Assembly: GCA_030705925.1 (NCBI GenBank)
Contig: JAUZPM010000009.1
Location: 1 to 46,217, forward strand
From: Bacillota bacterium
Lineage (GTDB): Bacteria > Bacillota > Clostridia > Oscillospirales > Feifaniaceae
Reading direction: 5' to 3'
DNA length: 46,217 nucleotides
The notes under the pieces were generated by a model. It searched no databases. It had not been told where the DNA came from and worked only from the letters and a program-made list of their open reading frames with translations. Shown here in pieces: positions 4,536 to 10,740 of the stretch (within the stretch, counting starts at the first letter, position 1; every line of letters begins with the position of its first letter). Both the position numbers and the translations under genes were made by a program.

Positions 4536-5555
4536 ATGTACAGCGAGATAGGAATGGATTTGGGGACAGCAAGTGTTCTTATATACGTAAAAAATAAGGG
4601 TATTGTATTAAGAGAGCCATCAGTTGTTGCCGTTGACAGAAACACTAATCATGTAAAGGCTGCCGGAACAGAGGCTCAGAAAATGCTTGGAAGAACACCT
4701 GGTAACATTATTGCTATTCGTCCGCTCCGTGAGGGCGTTATTAATGATTTCGAAGTTACACAGAAAATGATAAAGGAGTTCATAAAAAAAGTATGCGGGT
4801 TCATGATTTTGCGTCCTAAGATCATGATTTGCATACCAAGCGGTATTACAGAGGTTGAAGAGCGCGCTGTTATTGATGCTGCAAAGCAGGCTGGCGCTAA
4901 AAAGGTGTACTTAATTGAAGAGCCTATCGCTGCAGCTATTGGGGCAGGCGTTGATATATATAAACCAGACGGCAATATGATTGTCGATATCGGTGGCGGA
5001 ACGACCGATGTGGCTGTTATCTCGCTTGGTTCCTCGGTTGTTTCCTCATCAATTAAAACAGCAGGAGATAAATTCGACGAGGCGTTAATTAAATACTGCA
5101 AGAGAAAATACAACGTTCTCATCGGTGAAAGAACTGCCGAACGAGTTAAAATGGAGATCGGATGCATATATCCAATGGAGGAGAAAATGGCTGTTGAAGT
5201 CAAGGGCAGATGCCTTATGACCGGTCTTCCGAAGGTTATTACAATAACATCCGATGAACTTTTAGAGGCGTTTGAAGAATGCGCTTCAAATATTTTAGAG
5301 GCAATACATTCAGTTCTCGAGCGTACTCCTCCGGAGCTTATAGGTGATATTGTTCAAAACGGCATTATCATGACTGGCGGCGGAAGCCTTATTTATGGCT
5401 TTGACAAGCTTGTCGAGTTCAAAACTGGGATAAAAACACGTATTGCAGACGATGCAATTTCCTGTGTCGCCAAAGGAACAGGCAAGTGTCTTGCAAACCT
5501 GAATAAACTGCAGGATGGAACGCTAAATATAGCACGCAATAAAGAGATGTATTAA
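4536..5555 (+). CDS. mreB: MreB/Mbl-type actin homologue, rod shape determination
   Basis: A bacterial actin that forms membrane-associated filaments and guides elongation-phase peptidoglycan synthesis. The nucleotide-binding motifs are present: phosphate-1 MDLGTASV near the N-terminus, phosphate-2 IVDIGGGTTDVAVI, and the adenosine motif GIIMTGGGSLIYG near the C-terminus. The long match to EPSVVAVD and GRTPGNIIAIRPL is typical of the Mbl/MreB group. Length is 339 residues. No mreC or mreD follows. The gene stands alone between its own promoter and a stem-loop, as Mbl-type paralogues often do, so it may be mbl rather than the mreBCD-linked copy. Confidence 0.92.
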   Translation: MYSEIGMDLGTASVLIYVKNKGIVLREPSVVAVDRNTNHVKAAGTEAQKMLGRTPGNIIAIRPLREGVINDFEVTQKMIKEFIKKVCGFMILRPKIMICIPSGITEVEERAVIDAAKQAGAKKVYLIEEPIAAAIGAGVDIYKPDGNMIVDIGGGTTDVAVISLGSSVVSSSIKTAGDKFDEALIKYCKRKYNVLIGERTAERVKMEIGCIYPMEEKMAVEVKGRCLMTGLPKVITITSDELLEAFEECASNILEAIHSVLERTPPELIGDIVQNGIIMTGGGSLIYGFDKLVEFKTGIKTRIADDAISCVAKGTGKCLANLNKLQDGTLNIARNKEMY

Positions 5556-5577
5556 GCACTTAAAAATTTAAAAAAAT

Positions 5578-5640
5578 GAACTGCATCCTTAAGTTTTATC
5601 AGTATTTTTACTGACTTGCTAAAGGAGTGCAGTTCTTTTA
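5578..5640. terminator. Long stem-loop between convergent mreB and cyclase-family gene
   Basis: Arms GAACTGCA (5578-5585) and TGCAGTTC (5628-5635) pair, with further pairing inside (CCTT with AAGG) and a smaller nested hairpin in the loop (TCAGT with ACTGA). TTTT follows on the plus strand and an A-rich run precedes it, so it could terminate both convergent genes. Confidence 0.7.
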
Positions 5641-5651
5641 ATTAAAAAAGA

Positions 5652-6275
5652 TTATAAAACTTGTGCATATGCTCGAATTAAACTTGATTCTGCGTGGATT
5701 TTCAGCGGGACAGCATAAAAAATAAATTGTTTATCAATAAGCTGGCTTAACCCAGTTAAATTTTCTATTATGAAAATATTATTTGAGAGCAGTATCTTGT
5801 GAATAGAAAATGGCGCCAAATCGGGAGAAGGCATATCGATGCCAACAAGTTTTACTTTTTTCGACACCAAAAACTCGGCAAGCCTTGTGCTTAATACCGG
5901 TTGTTCTTCGTAGTAGATTTGACTTCCGTAATGTTTGTCGAATCCTGTATAAAATAAAACAGCATGTTCGCTAATATCAATATTGCCATATTCCTGTTTG
6001 TAATCAATGATCTTTTCGCCTCTCACATCAAATAAAAGTCCCTTTGCAATAAAGTTCGAAAGAGGAAAATCTCCAATAGATCTTTCGTCTGGCAAAAGGT
6101 GTGATGGGGCGTCGATGTGAGTTCCAGAATGCATTCCTGCTTGTATAATCCAAGCATTATATAAGTCTTTTTTAATAAAACATTTCTGTTTTAGAACGAC
6201 AGGGGTATCACCAGGGTAGACAGGCATATCGTTTTCAATATCGTATGATAAGTCTAAAAACTTAGATTCAGTCAA
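5652..6275 (-). CDS. Cyclase family protein (kynurenine formamidase-like metal hydrolase)
   Basis: Belongs to the cyclase/KynB-like family (PF04199): metal-dependent amide or ester hydrolases that include arylformamidase and isatin hydrolase. The signature HSGTHIDAPSH sits at residues 49-59, with His49, His53, Asp55 and His59 as expected metal and active-site residues. The substrate cannot be told from sequence, and no tryptophan-catabolism gene is nearby. The start is TTG, with AAAGGA nine bases upstream on the minus strand. Length is 207 residues, normal for the family. It is a single gene, convergent with mreB and divergent from the diguanylate cyclase. Confidence 0.85.
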   Translation of the reverse strand: MTESKFLDLSYDIENDMPVYPGDTPVVLKQKCFIKKDLYNAWIIQAGMHSGTHIDAPSHLLPDERSIGDFPLSNFIAKGLLFDVRGEKIIDYKQEYGNIDISEHAVLFYTGFDKHYGSQIYYEEQPVLSTRLAEFLVSKKVKLVGIDMPSPDLAPFSIHKILLSNNIFIIENLTGLSQLIDKQFIFYAVPLKIHAESSLIRAYAQVL

Positions 6276-6384
6276 TAGAACATATCCTTTCTGTTATAAT
6301 GTCTTATAATAATACTGGAAATATTTTTATGCTTGTTATATAATATTCTAATTATAAACAAAATGTATTAAAGTGGGTGAAACC

Positions 6385-7467
6385 ATGGAAATCGGCATAT
6401 TTGCAGAGTTTAAAGATAAAGAATTCGAAAGTGAATACTATAACAGTGAGTTATCTTCCAGCCGACGTTTTACACGCCTTATGGTATTGGGATTTGGAAT
6501 ATTATATTTCTTATATGTTATCCCGGATTTTTCAATGTTACATAATAGTAAAGTATTTATAGGCACGTTTATAGACAGGTTATTTATTTTAGTTCTTACA
6601 ATTATATTCTATTTCAGATTTTCCTGTATAAAAAAACCGAAAGCAGCATCTTACTGGCTGACAGCATATAAGCTAATTTTTTCTGCTTCGTATCTTCATA
6701 TAGCTAGTATTTATATTCATCCTAATTTCCTAATCAAATGCTTTGATATTATTTTGATGATCCTCTGCTTTTTGGCTGTATCTAATAAATGGCTAGATAA
6801 TTTTATCTGTTCTCTTATTCTTTACATAGGATATTTTATTCTCGCAAGGACAGTTATGAATGTTACAGACAACGAATATTATGCCGGAGTCGTTTATGTA
6901 AGCGTAATACTCTGTGTAACAGCTGTATATTCGTTCAATTTGAATTGGTATAAACGTCAGCACTATCTTGATATAAAAAAGCTTGAAAAGCTTGCGGCGA
7001 CAGACTCGCTTACATGCATTTTCAATCGGGCACTTTTTAATGATAAACTTTCAGACAGCATTGATTTATGGAAGAAAAACGGGATGGATTTTTCTGTGAT
7101 ATTCTGTGATATAGATAATATGAAAACCATTAATGACACGCTAGGCCATATTATCGGAGATAAGGTCATTGTAGGAATCGTTGATCTCATAAAAAACAAT
7201 TTACGCCCTGGAGATATATTTGCCAGATGGGGCGGCGACGAATTTGTCATACTGCTGTCTGAAACAAATAAAAACACAGCTGTAAAAATAGCCGAAAATC
7301 TCCGTTCGGCTATAGGTTATAAAGTCATTGAAGGTATACAGGCTATTACCTGCAGTTTCGGGGTTGTTTCATCGGAAGATGGTGATTCGATAGAAGAACT
7401 ACTCATAAATGCGGATACATTGCTTTATGAAGCTAAAAACGGGAAAAACATGGTAATGTACAGGTAA
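6385..7467 (+). CDS. Membrane-anchored diguanylate cyclase (GGDEF)
   Basis: Makes cyclic di-GMP from two GTP. The N-terminal half (about residues 30-190) contains roughly six hydrophobic segments forming a membrane sensor of unknown ligand. The C-terminal catalytic domain starts near LAATDSLTCIFNR and has the intact signature GGDEF at residues 283-287. An RPGD inhibitory-site motif (residues 274-277) lies exactly five residues before it, so product inhibition is expected. An in-frame GTG at 6373 would add four residues; I prefer the ATG at 6385, which has GTGGGTG upstream. The stop directly abuts the stop of the convergent DacF-like gene. Confidence 0.93.
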   Translation: MEIGIFAEFKDKEFESEYYNSELSSSRRFTRLMVLGFGILYFLYVIPDFSMLHNSKVFIGTFIDRLFILVLTIIFYFRFSCIKKPKAASYWLTAYKLIFSASYLHIASIYIHPNFLIKCFDIILMILCFLAVSNKWLDNFICSLILYIGYFILARTVMNVTDNEYYAGVVYVSVILCVTAVYSFNLNWYKRQHYLDIKKLEKLAATDSLTCIFNRALFNDKLSDSIDLWKKNGMDFSVIFCDIDNMKTINDTLGHIIGDKVIVGIVDLIKNNLRPGDIFARWGGDEFVILLSETNKNTAVKIAENLRSAIGYKVIEGIQAITCSFGVVSSEDGDSIEELLINADTLLYEAKNGKNMVMYR

Positions 7468-8805
7468 TCAGCGATAACGCTTATAACGTCTGCCACCGTA
7501 TCTGCGCTGACTTCTCTTGCGTTTATTGAGATAGGTAATAATAATGTATCCGATAAATAGTAAAATTGCCGCGACTATCAAAATCCGAAGAGCAATACTA
7601 GTCAGAAAAGCCATTATTTCATGCATTATGAAAAGTATCGTACTGCGGCTTACGTTGGATTGGGATACAAGGGGCGCCCTGCCATATTCAACGCCGTTAT
7701 ATATAAATTCGACCTCGCCCAGCTCGTCGCCTTTTTTAATAGGTGCTTTAACAGGGTGTTCCTTCATTTCAATTTTGCGCTGAAGGCTGTTTTCATCAAC
7801 GCTGTTAGGAAGCAGAGTAGTATAACCGTCCGGCGAAATCAGCACCACGGAATCGGCAAGACTGGATAACGAAACAGGGACTTCTGTGACCGGCTCTTTA
7901 GCCTTTAATACCTGCACACTTTTATAATTATCAAATACCCATGATGAAAGTGCCTTAGCATCTATAAAACAGCTTTTTCGTTTGTTTTCTGAATTTCGTG
8001 TACCGCCCATTACAATGCATATGTAATTTAAATTGTTGGCCTTTACAGCAGTTGCGACGGAATAACCGCTTTCTGGTGTGTAGGAAGCGATTATGCCGCG
8101 TGCGTATTTGTAATAATAATCTGAAACGAAACGGTCAGGAGAACTTACTATTAAATTATTAGTTGAATAATAATTCCTGTCGTCTGTTATATTGGTTGCA
8201 GAAATTCTTTTATATTGAATATTAGCATAATCCATAAATTTAGGGGCTGTATAAGCGGCCTTTGTAATAAGAAACATGTCATATGCTGTTGTATATTGGT
8301 TTGTATCGTCAATTCCGCTTGGGTTTGTAAAATTCGTATCTTTGCAGTTTAATTTTTTGACATAATCGTTCATCATTGGAACAAAATCTTTGACACTCCC
8401 TGCAACATGTTCGGCAAGGGCGTTTGCAGCGTCGCATGCGTTTCGTGTAAACATGCAGTATAGAAGGTTTGAAACGCTTATCTGCTCACCGGGTTTAAGT
8501 GATGCGGTTAGCGCATTTTTATCGTTCGCGACACCATCCTGTACAGAGCTATTTATTGTGACCATAGTGTCAAGATCAGGTACGTTATTAAGCACTATCA
8601 GGGCTGTAACGATCATGTTTAAATTGCCCGGCGCAGTTCTTTCGCGAGCACCCTCTTCGAATAAGACTATATTTGTTTCAAGATTTACTATGATTGCCCG
8701 TTTCGATTCTATCGAAGGCGCAGAAGTATCAGCTGCACCAGCTTTGATCACAGGCTGGAGCAGAACAAAGCACAATATAACAGCTATAAGACGTTTTATT
8801 TGCAT
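7468..8805 (-). CDS. DacF-like serine-type carboxypeptidase homologue lacking catalytic motifs (probable pseudoenzyme)
   Basis: By overall fold this is an S11-family D-Ala-D-Ala carboxypeptidase. It has a signal peptide (residues 1-25), a transpeptidase-like domain (about 30-275), a C-terminal beta domain, a hydrophobic helix near residues 400-425 and a very basic Arg/Lys/Tyr tail. All three catalytic motifs are replaced. SxxK is N61-L-N-M64 within TAPGNLNMIVTA; SxN is N122-A-C within TRNACDAANALAE; KTG is I239-A-S within GIIASYTPESGY. Flanking family residues are well kept and the frame is intact over 445 codons, which argues for retained non-catalytic function rather than decay. The basic tail may bind wall polymers or the membrane face; this is inference. 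Confidence 0.9.
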   Translation of the reverse strand: MQIKRLIAVILCFVLLQPVIKAGAADTSAPSIESKRAIIVNLETNIVLFEEGARERTAPGNLNMIVTALIVLNNVPDLDTMVTINSSVQDGVANDKNALTASLKPGEQISVSNLLYCMFTRNACDAANALAEHVAGSVKDFVPMMNDYVKKLNCKDTNFTNPSGIDDTNQYTTAYDMFLITKAAYTAPKFMDYANIQYKRISATNITDDRNYYSTNNLIVSSPDRFVSDYYYKYARGIIASYTPESGYSVATAVKANNLNYICIVMGGTRNSENKRKSCFIDAKALSSWVFDNYKSVQVLKAKEPVTEVPVSLSSLADSVVLISPDGYTTLLPNSVDENSLQRKIEMKEHPVKAPIKKGDELGEVEFIYNGVEYGRAPLVSQSNVSRSTILFIMHEIMAFLTSIALRILIVAAILLFIGYIIITYLNKRKRSQRRYGGRRYKRYR

Positions 8806-8825: not shown

Positions 8826-8840
8826 GCCGCTATAAGCGGC
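8826..8840. other. Small palindrome between divergent DacF-like gene and comEA
   Basis: GCCGC and GCGGC flank a five-base loop in the 68-base divergent intergenic region. It could be an operator or a transcript-leader hairpin. No clear -35/-10 pair is recognisable beside it. Confidence 0.3.
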
Positions 8841-8873: not shown

Positions 8874-9218
8874 TTGAAAAGAATAAAAATTTATTACATT
8901 AGTGTTGCCATTATTACAGCTATATTTGCGGCGGCAATTATTTTTATTAATAACTCTGACAGCCTGTTTGGTTACACTTTTGTGCACAATGAAAGTGTTT
9001 CTGATGCCGATGCCCAAAAGGATTATAGAATAAATATAAATACTGCAGGCGTGGATGAGCTTGATATGATCGACGGTATCGGTGAGGCAACCGCAAAAGA
9101 AATTATAGAATATCGCGAGGAATATGGAAATTTTAAAAATATTGAGGACATTAAAAATGTCAAAGGCATTAAAGACAAGACCTTTGACAAAATAAAAAGG
9201 TACATAAAGACAAATTAA
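8874..9218 (+). CDS. comEA: ComEA-like helix-hairpin-helix protein
   Basis: A membrane-anchored DNA receptor of the type used in natural transformation. One N-terminal transmembrane helix (about residues 6-25) is followed by a short linker and a C-terminal helix-hairpin-helix domain of the ComEA class. That domain has ININTAGVDELDMIDGIGE, then REEYGNFKNIEDIKNVKGI. The start is TTG, with AAGGAAG upstream. At 114 residues it is shorter than Bacillus ComEA (about 205) and lacks the oligomerisation region between anchor and DNA-binding domain. comEC lies about 34 kb downstream rather than next door. Confidence 0.87.
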   Translation: MKRIKIYYISVAIITAIFAAAIIFINNSDSLFGYTFVHNESVSDADAQKDYRININTAGVDELDMIDGIGEATAKEIIEYREEYGNFKNIEDIKNVKGIKDKTFDKIKRYIKTN

Positions 9219-9220
9219 CA

Positions 9221-9427
9221 CTAGACAGAAAAGTCGTCCTTATCGTAAGTTGGAAGACTTGGCCTGCGCATAGGAATACGTTTGAAGACGTCATATCTAA
9301 AACCGCGGCATGTATAATCCTCTCGGACAATACCGCGTTTTTGACATATAAGTTCTTCCCTGCCGGTAATCTTTGTCGCTTTTTCACATAAAGCGCATAT
9401 TTTAGGATGATCTTTTGAAAAAATCAT
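9221..9427 (-). CDS. Small four-cysteine protein, conserved-looking, function unknown
   Basis: A 68-residue protein with CALC near residues 11-14 and further cysteines near positions 28 and 40. This spacing suggests a small zinc-binding knuckle. The charged C-terminal tail ends PTYDKDDFSV. GAGGGA lies seven bases upstream of the ATG on the minus strand. I recall similar short proteins in clostridial genomes but cannot name a family. It lies downstream of ylbJ on the same strand with a 33-base gap, so it may be its operon partner, and its stop is two bases from the convergent comEA stop. Confidence 0.7.
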   Translation of the reverse strand: MIFSKDHPKICALCEKATKITGREELICQKRGIVREDYTCRGFRYDVFKRIPMRRPSLPTYDKDDFSV

Positions 9428-9460: not shown

Positions 9461-10642
9461 TTATACATGCCTTTTATTTCGTTTTCCAGTACTTTTTAAA
9501 AAAGTAATAACAAGAGATAAACCTAAAAATATTAAACAAGCACAGAATATAGATAATGACGATAATAAAGTTGATTTTAGATCCATGCCGCTTAAGTTTC
9601 TTATCGGCATCGACCCTGAGCCGATCACGGGAATCCGGATTGGATAAAATATAGCGGCTGCATACGTGATTGCGGCACCGATCAAAGACTGGGCGAATTT
9701 ACCTAAAATATATGGGGTGGCGGAAAGCCCGCTTCCAGATAAGAAAGACAAAACCTGGCAATGGACGGAAAGTCCAGCCCAGCTGAGGATTGCGCCGGTG
9801 ACAGCAAGCCTTATGGGGATTACCGCAGCACCTTTCCCTGCAAGACGAACGCCGGTTGTGACCTCGAAAAAACCCTTGACTAAGTTGCTGGATATTTCAT
9901 TGCCATAGGGGGTGAATGAGAGCAGACTGGCAAAAACATGACTTATAAAAGGTATAAACTTAAGCTGTGTCAAAAGTTCGATTACAACGGCAAAAAACAT
10001 TATAAAAGCGCATATGTAGAAAACATTTTCAGCAGAAGATTTTACAGCAGTTACAAAAATATCTGACCGTGAACGAAGAGGGGGCTTCCTTTTTTGATGA
10101 AAGGGTGCTCCTGATTTTTGCTTTGAATGATAAAAGCGGAAAATGACGCCGGTTATGACCGAGGCAATGGTTTGACAGGTATAAAGCAGGATACCTACCC
10201 GAACATCTTTCCAGATTCCTGCACCTACAGTGCCGAGAATGAAAGCAGGGCCGGTATTGTTGCAGAAAGCAAGCAGCCTTTCCGCTTCGTTTTTTGTGCA
10301 TTGTCCACTTTGGTACAGGCTTATAGCTGTATTTGCGCCAACCGGATAACCGCTGAGTATCCCAAGAAAAAAGGCAATTCCGCTGCAGCCGGGCAGCCCG
10401 AACACATGCTTCATAAATCCTGAAAAAACAGGACCTATTTTAGCGGCAAAGCCGCTGGTTATAATCATTGACGACAATACAAAAAATGGAAACAAGGAGG
10501 GCAGTATGACATTTCCACAAACGGCAAGTGTATCGATTACGACAGCGCTTACCGGTTTTGGAAAGATAAGAAGTCCCACAAGGAACACTGTAATGGCAAG
10601 ATAAAAAAAGATATCGAAAAGCTTTATAAGCAATTTGCGCAT
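9461..10642 (-). CDS. ylbJ: Sporulation integral membrane protein YlbJ
   Basis: A polytopic membrane protein with nucleoside-recognition (gate) domains. In Bacillus it is a mother-cell protein needed for spore-cortex formation. The sequence shows about ten hydrophobic segments and the family stretches ILPSLFPFFVLSS, GYPVGANTAISLY and EAERLLAFCNNTGPAFILG. A longer reading starts at 10654, but the GAGAGGTG ribosome site lies one base from that ATG and nine bases from the ATG at 10642. I therefore chose the latter (begins MRKLLIKLF). It is divergently arranged with yqfC, placing two sporulation units back to back. Confidence 0.9.
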   Translation of the reverse strand: MRKLLIKLFDIFFYLAITVFLVGLLIFPKPVSAVVIDTLAVCGNVILPSLFPFFVLSSMIITSGFAAKIGPVFSGFMKHVFGLPGCSGIAFFLGILSGYPVGANTAISLYQSGQCTKNEAERLLAFCNNTGPAFILGTVGAGIWKDVRVGILLYTCQTIASVITGVIFRFYHSKQKSGAPFHQKRKPPLRSRSDIFVTAVKSSAENVFYICAFIMFFAVVIELLTQLKFIPFISHVFASLLSFTPYGNEISSNLVKGFFEVTTGVRLAGKGAAVIPIRLAVTGAILSWAGLSVHCQVLSFLSGSGLSATPYILGKFAQSLIGAAITYAAAIFYPIRIPVIGSGSMPIRNLSGMDLKSTLLSSLSIFCACLIFLGLSLVITFLKSTGKRNKRHV

Positions 10643-10740
10643 GAAAACATTCACCTCTCAAAAGTATATGTTAGCAAAGCCTGCATTTAAAACAATTTGC
10701 TTGCATAAAAATTTATAGGAACATAAGAGAGGTGGCACTT
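10643..10740. promoter_or_regulatory. Divergent sporulation promoter region (ylbJ / yqfC), SigE-like -10 candidates
   Basis: On the plus strand GCATAAAAA (10703-10711) lies about 16 bases before the yqfC ribosome site. On the minus strand CATATACT lies just before the ylbJ ribosome site. Both match six of eight bases of the mother-cell SigE -10 (CATACAAT). The -35 elements are weak. In Bacillus both genes are SigE-controlled, which motivates the call, but it is a visual match only. Confidence 0.35.

Follow-up and report, generated by a model that had tools for sequence, protein, structure and literature searches.

The S11-family protein encoded in the window (the whole stretch of 46,217 nucleotides analyzed here, contig JAUZPM010000009.1 of the Feifaniaceae assembly GCA_030705925.1) has lost the residues of all three catalytic motifs of a D,D-carboxypeptidase and has kept its frame, fold, and membrane attachment. 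We give about an even chance to the interpretation that this protein is a pseudo-carboxypeptidase that is anchored in the membrane and has been retained for a structural or docking role. S11 carboxypeptidases are treated as enzymes, and similar losses found in other related gut bacteria suggest a non-enzymatic job.

Identity and predicted structure of the S11 protein

The ORF of the S11 protein starts with ATG and is open from end to end, which agrees with the absence of frame decay noted in a preliminary description of this sequence. In Pfam searches, the translation matched Peptidase_S11 with 135.1 bits over residues 27-268 (cut-off 27.6) and PBP5_C with 40.2 bits over residues 294-386 (cut-off 21.2), and the protein thus belongs to the S11 family of low-molecular-weight PBPs. 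Its scores against the NCBIfam models PRK10001 (113 bits, cut-off 765), PRK10793 (DacA; 108.9 bits, cut-off 694), and PRK11397 (DacD; 106.5 bits, cut-off 610) stayed below the cut-offs. A hydrophobic leader at the N-terminus and a hydrophobic helix near the C-terminus were both found, as expected from the signal peptide and membrane helix that had been described as intact (Table 1). The basic tail had been called unusual, and we ruled it out as a special feature of this protein because the tails of its orthologues are similarly basic, three of the five others having the KRYR ending. The third-position composition of the gene resembles that of neighboring genes. The ORF cannot be attributed to chance, since five orthologues from the same family align along its length with 34-38% identity and four of them, whose flanks are long enough to show it, are found in the same gene order. 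The genome has a size of 2.25 Mb in 115 contigs and contained three S11 genes, of which that of the window is on contig 9. A scan for promoters and terminators gave values close to those of shuffled controls.

The AlphaFold model (56 relatives from the named genome collection; mean pLDDT 93.9, pTM 0.84) has a PBP5-type fold and was aligned by VIA-align with Escherichia coli PBP5 (1z6f; Z 37.6, 346 residues aligned, rmsd 3.7) and with the S216A mutant of the Streptomyces K15 D,D-transpeptidase (1es5; Z 36.4, 249 residues aligned, rmsd 1.6), results that show compatibility with the PBP5 fold and not proof of it, as the model is steered by the family alignment.

Loss of the catalytic motifs

In serine PBPs, the Ser of SxxK is acylated and the Lys serves as base. 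The replacement of SxxK, SxN, and KTG by NLNM, NAC, and IAS, respectively, was confirmed, and the residue numbers previously given for them are exact. The window protein contains at these positions neither SxxK, nor SxN or SxC, nor KTG or its variants [KH][TS]G, the patterns of a catalytic D,D-carboxypeptidase. The first motif is found in the context A58-P-G-N61-L-N-M64, in which T63 of the family sequence S-x-T-K is also gone, and residues 58-76, the motif-1 helix, contain neither a Ser nor a Lys from which an SxxK in shifted position could be built. As both Ser and Lys of SxxK are missing, canonical acyl-enzyme chemistry has no residues with which to proceed, and we infer from these residues and the established chemistry that activity has been lost.

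Table 1. Positions of the S11 gene, its parts, and its neighbors in the window
Feature	Position	Strand	Basis or remark
Putative S11 (DacF/PBP5-like) pseudo-D,D-carboxypeptidase, 445 aa	7468..8805	-	ORF, translation, PF00768 and PF07943 scores
Motif 1, residues 61-64, NLNM instead of SxxK	8614..8625	-	Nucleophile Ser and base Lys missing
Motif 2, residues 122-124, NAC instead of SxN	8434..8442	-	
Motif 3, residues 239-241, IAS instead of KTG	8083..8091	-	
PBP5_C domain, residues 294-386	7648..7926	-	Pfam; relatively better kept in Ser-less S11 proteins
C-terminal hydrophobic (membrane) helix, about residues 408-426	7528..7584	-	Hydropathy; helix 404-444 in the model
Basic tail, residues 427-445	7471..7527	-	11 K/R in 19 residues; common to orthologues
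ComEA-like gene, divergent neighbor	8874..9218	+	Family search; in relatives also beside intact S11
68-aa Cys-rich ORF	9221..9427	-	Syntenic in four other family genomes and G019
YlbJ-like membrane protein, syntenic neighbor	9461..10654	-	215.6 bits, below the TIGR02871 cut-off of 304.65

Orthologues and the probable order of loss

The family set consisted of eight genomes including that of the window, and an orthologue of the window gene was found in six of them, again including that of the window. The five other orthologues have an intact motif 1 (SLVK or SLAK) but SAA, SAG, or SSA at motif 2 and MTG or MAS at motif 3. None of the six orthologues has the motif-2 Asn or the motif-3 Lys, and SxxK is lost in that of the window alone. 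The three losses had been considered independent, a reading that we reject because two of them are common to the family orthologues. Judging from how the motifs are distributed over these orthologues, the family ancestor probably lacked the motif-2 Asn and motif-3 Lys already, and the Ser and Lys of SxxK were the last to go. The more distant syntenic orthologue of G019 is intact (STTK/SGN/KTG). Intact orthologues in sister species combined with relaxed selection had been proposed as the sign of simple decay; this sign is seen only in part, in the intact but more distant G019 protein, whereas motifs 2 and 3 have already changed in the closest relatives.

The gene order S11-comEA-(68 aa)-ylbJ-yqfC-yqfD-phoH is kept in G001, G003, G005, and G006 and, minus comEA, in G019. 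In G005 and G006, the 68-aa ORF and ylbJ are separated by an extra large ORF, which G001 has in a like place. The matches in G002 and G004 included paralogues only, which does not establish absence of the orthologue, as the G002 contig stops at ylbJ and G004 is 75% complete. A paralogue with intact SxxK, SxN, and KTG is found in all eight family genomes, and in the genome of the window it is on contig 33 (SITK/SGN/KTG). The S11 gene on contig 21 of this genome (G000; L002, 1321-2271) encodes a protein of 317 aa with SLTK/SGA/KTG, a length too short for PBP5_C in its usual placement. The window protein clusters with its family in both trees that were constructed. The neighbors of this group differ between the trees (G017, G049, G030, G040, and G016 in the first, and G038/G014 inside the group in the second), so that its deeper history is unsure.

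Recurrence of broken motifs in the order

Taking one best S11 match per genome from 90 of the 98 genomes of the Oscillospirales-like order yielded 91 proteins (the genomes outside this set were G002, G004, G025, G031, G056, G057, G087, and G093), and 40 further S11 genes among those listed for the same genomes, taken in list order and hence not at random, brought the total to 131. By strict motifs, 47 of the 91 proteins are intact at all three, 13 are broken at all three, 13 retain SxxK only, 11 lack motif 2 alone, and 7 have other combinations. The SxxK pair is absent in 19 of the 91, and the label "D-alanyl-D-alanine carboxypeptidase," if assigned from family membership only, may therefore mislead for a sizeable share of these proteins. 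Among all 131, the Ser is lost in 23, in 9 of which the Lys is lost as well, and the residues found in its place are F, A, G, N, E, V, C, and Y. Motif 2 of K15 is SGC, and for this reason SxC was accepted beside SxN; the number of intact proteins is 73 of 131 by the strict rule and 86 once SxC is counted.

Each of the 23 Ser-less proteins has a C-terminal membrane helix, and all 26 helix-less proteins (one of them, in G070, cut at a contig end) are intact. This association of helix and broken motifs (Fisher p 4e-8, strict calls) is a description and not a test, since the p value ignores relatedness and the state of the helix changes about three times on the tree. Parsimony on the quick tree, where many forks are open and gain is indistinguishable from loss, gave minima of 9 changes for SxxK, 11 for SxN, and 8 for KTG. 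Ser-less S11 proteins are also found in Ruminococcus flavefaciens ATCC 19208 and YAD2003 (PGPLVNIM/LTSSVEAAE/KTA). In the scan of named genomes, all three motifs are broken in 11 of another set of 131 proteins among the matches listed, counts that are unusable as frequencies because the search pattern favors an altered motif 2 and only listed matches are covered.

Several arrangements were noticed in the course of this survey. L094, L096, and L119 carry a tandem S11 pair (at about 4600-7320), both members of which have broken motifs; in L119 these are LSYLANIM/LTDGHDASY/KYA followed by PASLTKIM/VPVGHDSAT/KNG. The Ser-less ELTK/NND/IGG proteins of L180 (G038, 4802-6526) and L182 (G014, 5280-7040) extend 144 and 150 residues, respectively, past the membrane helix, a possible cytoplasmic domain. 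An alternative motif set, SxxK/GAN/NxG or SxG, in which Ser and Lys are kept, is found in L016, L033, L165, L162, L198, L195, and L185, and this group may be an enzyme with altered motifs. The S11 gene is preceded by a ribF-like gene in four of these seven (L162, L185, L195, and L198).

Selective constraint

The dN/dS ratios (Nei-Gojobori, NG86) were calculated for all pairs with >50% identity in which SxxK is broken in both members (n = 8), and varied from 0.037 to 0.19, values that are rough in all pairs but L082/L085 because dS is 1.4-2.8 and near saturation. The R. flavefaciens pair L082/L085 had a dN/dS of 0.043 at a dS of 0.91. The others were G085/G055 (0.037), G038/G014 (0.074), G049/G030 (0.19), the two tandem genes of L094/L096 (0.098 and 0.121), and L102 paired with L082 (0.124) and L085 (0.095); three of the eight pairs thus come from the trio L082/L085/L102. 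The medians for intact pairs were 0.066, 0.209, 0.216, and 0.292 at 80-99, 70-80, 60-70, and 50-60% identity, respectively. Seven of the eight broken pairs had values at or below the intact median of like identity, the exception being one of 0.074 versus 0.066 in the >80% band, which holds three pairs. These results show that the SxxK-broken S11 pairs are under purifying selection.

The eight pairs in which SxxK is kept and motifs 2 and 3 are altered had dN/dS of 0.108-0.615. Five of them, the window-family pairs with >50% identity, ranged from 0.171 to 0.615, which is not low and is contained in the range of intact pairs at 50-70% identity (0.087-0.616). Comparison of the window gene with its nearest relatives, the five family orthologues (34-38% amino-acid identity), gave a saturated pS of 0.81-0.87 and a pN of 0.45-0.48, which shows that the window protein has been under long-term constraint, for part of that time before SxxK was lost. 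The proposal of selection for a non-catalytic job is supported by the recurrence of SxxK loss, the low dN/dS of the other broken pairs, the excess of pS over pN, and the kept fold.

The two domains were compared in disjoint pairs with 25-60% overall identity. The catalytic and C-terminal domains were 49 and 34% identical, respectively, in intact pairs of the helix class (n = 29) and 38.5 and 32% identical in Ser-less pairs (n = 10). The difference, C-terminal minus catalytic, was -0.067 in Ser-less versus -0.156 in intact pairs (Mann-Whitney p 0.004; p 0.02 without the motif surroundings), and the identity of the active-site surroundings in disjoint pairs was 0.43 versus 0.62. Constraint in Ser-less S11 proteins thus moves from the catalytic towards the C-terminal domain, a shift for which simple relaxation of the catalytic domain could account. 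It should be noted that this measure varies for other reasons too, as the two intact classes also differ (-0.274 in helix-less versus -0.156 in helix-bearing proteins). Where Ser and Lys are present but motif 2 or 3 is altered (22 proteins), the difference was -0.158 and the active-site identity 0.59 versus 0.62 in intact proteins; given this intact-like constraint, these proteins may remain enzymes.

Proposed role and alternative explanations

We propose that the window protein is an exported, PBP5-folded homologue of S11 D,D-carboxypeptidases that would have turned pseudoenzyme and for which formation of an acyl-enzyme would be impossible. The C-terminal helix and basic tail would hold it in the membrane, where its most likely role would be non-catalytic structural or docking work at the membrane-wall boundary. 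What function survives would reside in the PBP5_C domain and the anchor, which might, for instance, position or occupy a partner; the cutting would be left to the intact S11 paralogue. Retention of the gene, recurrence of the losses, low dN/dS in other broken pairs, and the shift of constraint suggest that the C-terminal domain and anchor have structural or docking work to do. More tentatively, with somewhat less than an even chance of being right, Oscillospirales-type gut bacteria have repeatedly made the membrane-anchored S11 class into non-enzymatic wall proteins, i.e., pseudo-PBPs that beta-lactams cannot acylate, with their function in the C-terminal domain and anchor, beside an intact paralogue.

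Both the binding of peptidoglycan stems or muropeptides and scaffolding had been offered as examples of a non-catalytic job. Scaffolding appears to fit better than stem binding in the old cleft, which we do not favor because the SxN and KTG residues are lost and the active-site surroundings are under weaker constraint in Ser-less proteins. A remodelled cleft that holds stem peptides or muropeptides uncut, as a sensor or sink, would agree with the kept PBP5 fold and with active-site windows whose conservation in Ser-less proteins slightly exceeds that of the remaining domain (0.43 versus 0.37). The window protein, however, is changed at all three motifs, and replacement of the Ser by eight different residues over 23 proteins is unlike one retained binding site, which makes such a ligand binder unlikely. 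The lower conservation of the catalytic domain in Ser-less than in intact proteins would also be seen if the paralogue sufficed, the function were gone, and the gene were a relaxed remnant drifting to loss, with which the failure to detect the orthologue in two of eight family genomes and the window-family dN/dS of up to 0.62 are consistent. The two genomes concerned are those with the contig ending at ylbJ and the 75% completeness, and the window frame has stayed open despite 34-38% identity and saturated synonymous sites. Together with the retained C-terminal domain and anchor and the low dN/dS in all eight SxxK-broken pairs elsewhere, these observations make a drifting remnant distinctly unlikely.

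It is very improbable that the window protein is still catalytic with re-engineered motifs of unusual residues. Variant motifs do occur in enzymes of the same fold, such as SGC at motif 2 in the published description of K15 (PMC12073871), 13 of the 91 proteins combine a retained SxxK with altered motifs 2 and 3, and active-site constraint is near normal in the 22 that are altered at motif 2 or 3 but not in Ser or Lys; the window protein, however, has neither Ser61 nor Lys64, nor any Ser or Lys elsewhere in the motif-1 helix, and has lost T63 as well. An artefact of assembly or sequencing, conceivable in a draft genome of 115 contigs, is scarcely credible in view of several separate substitutions with zero frame change, five other assemblies of the family in which motifs 2 and 3 are changed as well, and a third-position composition like that of neighboring genes.

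Comparison with known systems

The window protein shares fold, domain order, export, and C-terminal membrane attachment with S11 proteins of the PBP5/PBP6/DacF type (PF00768 and PF07943). Unlike them, it has all three motifs replaced and has a true hydrophobic membrane helix followed by a basic tail, whereas PBP5 attaches to the membrane through an amphipathic helix. Its likeness to the K15 D,D-transpeptidase (1es5, 1skf) includes the low rmsd of the catalytic domain (1.6 over 249 residues) and the Cys in third place of motif 2, SGC in K15 and NAC in the window protein. The motifs given for K15, STTK, SGC, and KTG, differ from those of the window protein (PMC12073871).

Inactive members of the superfamily were already known, as the same report describes an "inactive beta-lactamase group" (5IHV, from B. 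ambifaria; PMC12073871). As described there, this group resembles the window protein in belonging to the same superfamily, in having the nucleophile and base positions changed, and in keeping the fold; it differs in being a beta-lactamase homologue represented by two structures, for which the passages on the group report neither recurrence nor a membrane anchor. Roles independent of catalysis are stated for B. subtilis PBP 2B (PMC5656894) and C. difficile PBP3 (PMC12713402). According to the summaries of this work, these are class B PBPs and not S11 proteins, and they were studied in catalytically inactive form rather than as natural losses. The sections of S11 reports that treat the motifs stress their conservation (PMC4281109), in one case with the exception of two DacB homologues of low similarity (PMC6435803). 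No account of naturally Ser-less S11 proteins was found in the open-access literature searched by title and abstract opening. The recurrence of Ser-less S11 proteins is more surprising than the single gene of the window.

The part that the C-terminal domain and anchor of S11 proteins play beyond catalysis has long been in question. A natural Ser-less class, with members in several lineages, among them R. flavefaciens ATCC 19208 and YAD2003, would make this question testable without engineered mutants.

Neighboring genes

The genes recurring beside S11 genes are comEA, a two-component system with a GerMN-like lipoprotein, a metallophosphoesterase gene, and ribF, of which the window copy of ComEA was named by family search and the others by reading of their sequences. 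The comEA, two-component, and metallophosphoesterase genes adjoin intact S11 genes as well. A ribF-like gene is found beside eight S11 genes, none of them intact, in a region of the tree other than that of the window. Among the flanks compared, no partner gene is constant across the broken S11 members, and with most recurring neighbors also flanking intact S11 genes, no candidate for a dedicated partner was established.

The YlbJ-, YqfC-, and YqfD-like neighbors, together with the presence of Spo0A_C in all eight family genomes, are compatible with a sporulation setting for the window protein. Spo0A_C was found in 87 of the 98 genomes of the order, and 4 of the 11 genomes without it (G058, G073, G080, and G086) have a Ser-less S11 protein. 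Loss of sporulation as the cause of the broken motifs is unsupported, given the presence of Spo0A_C in these 87 genomes, including all those of the family.

A gene for a GGDEF protein (6373-7467, + strand) abuts the stop of the S11 gene in convergent orientation and had no match in the flanks of the relatives compared for synteny. The 68-aa Cys-rich ORF, which had no match in Pfam, encodes a small conserved unannotated protein between ylbJ and comEA/S11. The 68-base gap between the divergent starts of the S11 and comEA genes contains a perfect 6+6 inverted repeat with a 3-base spacer (8826-8840).
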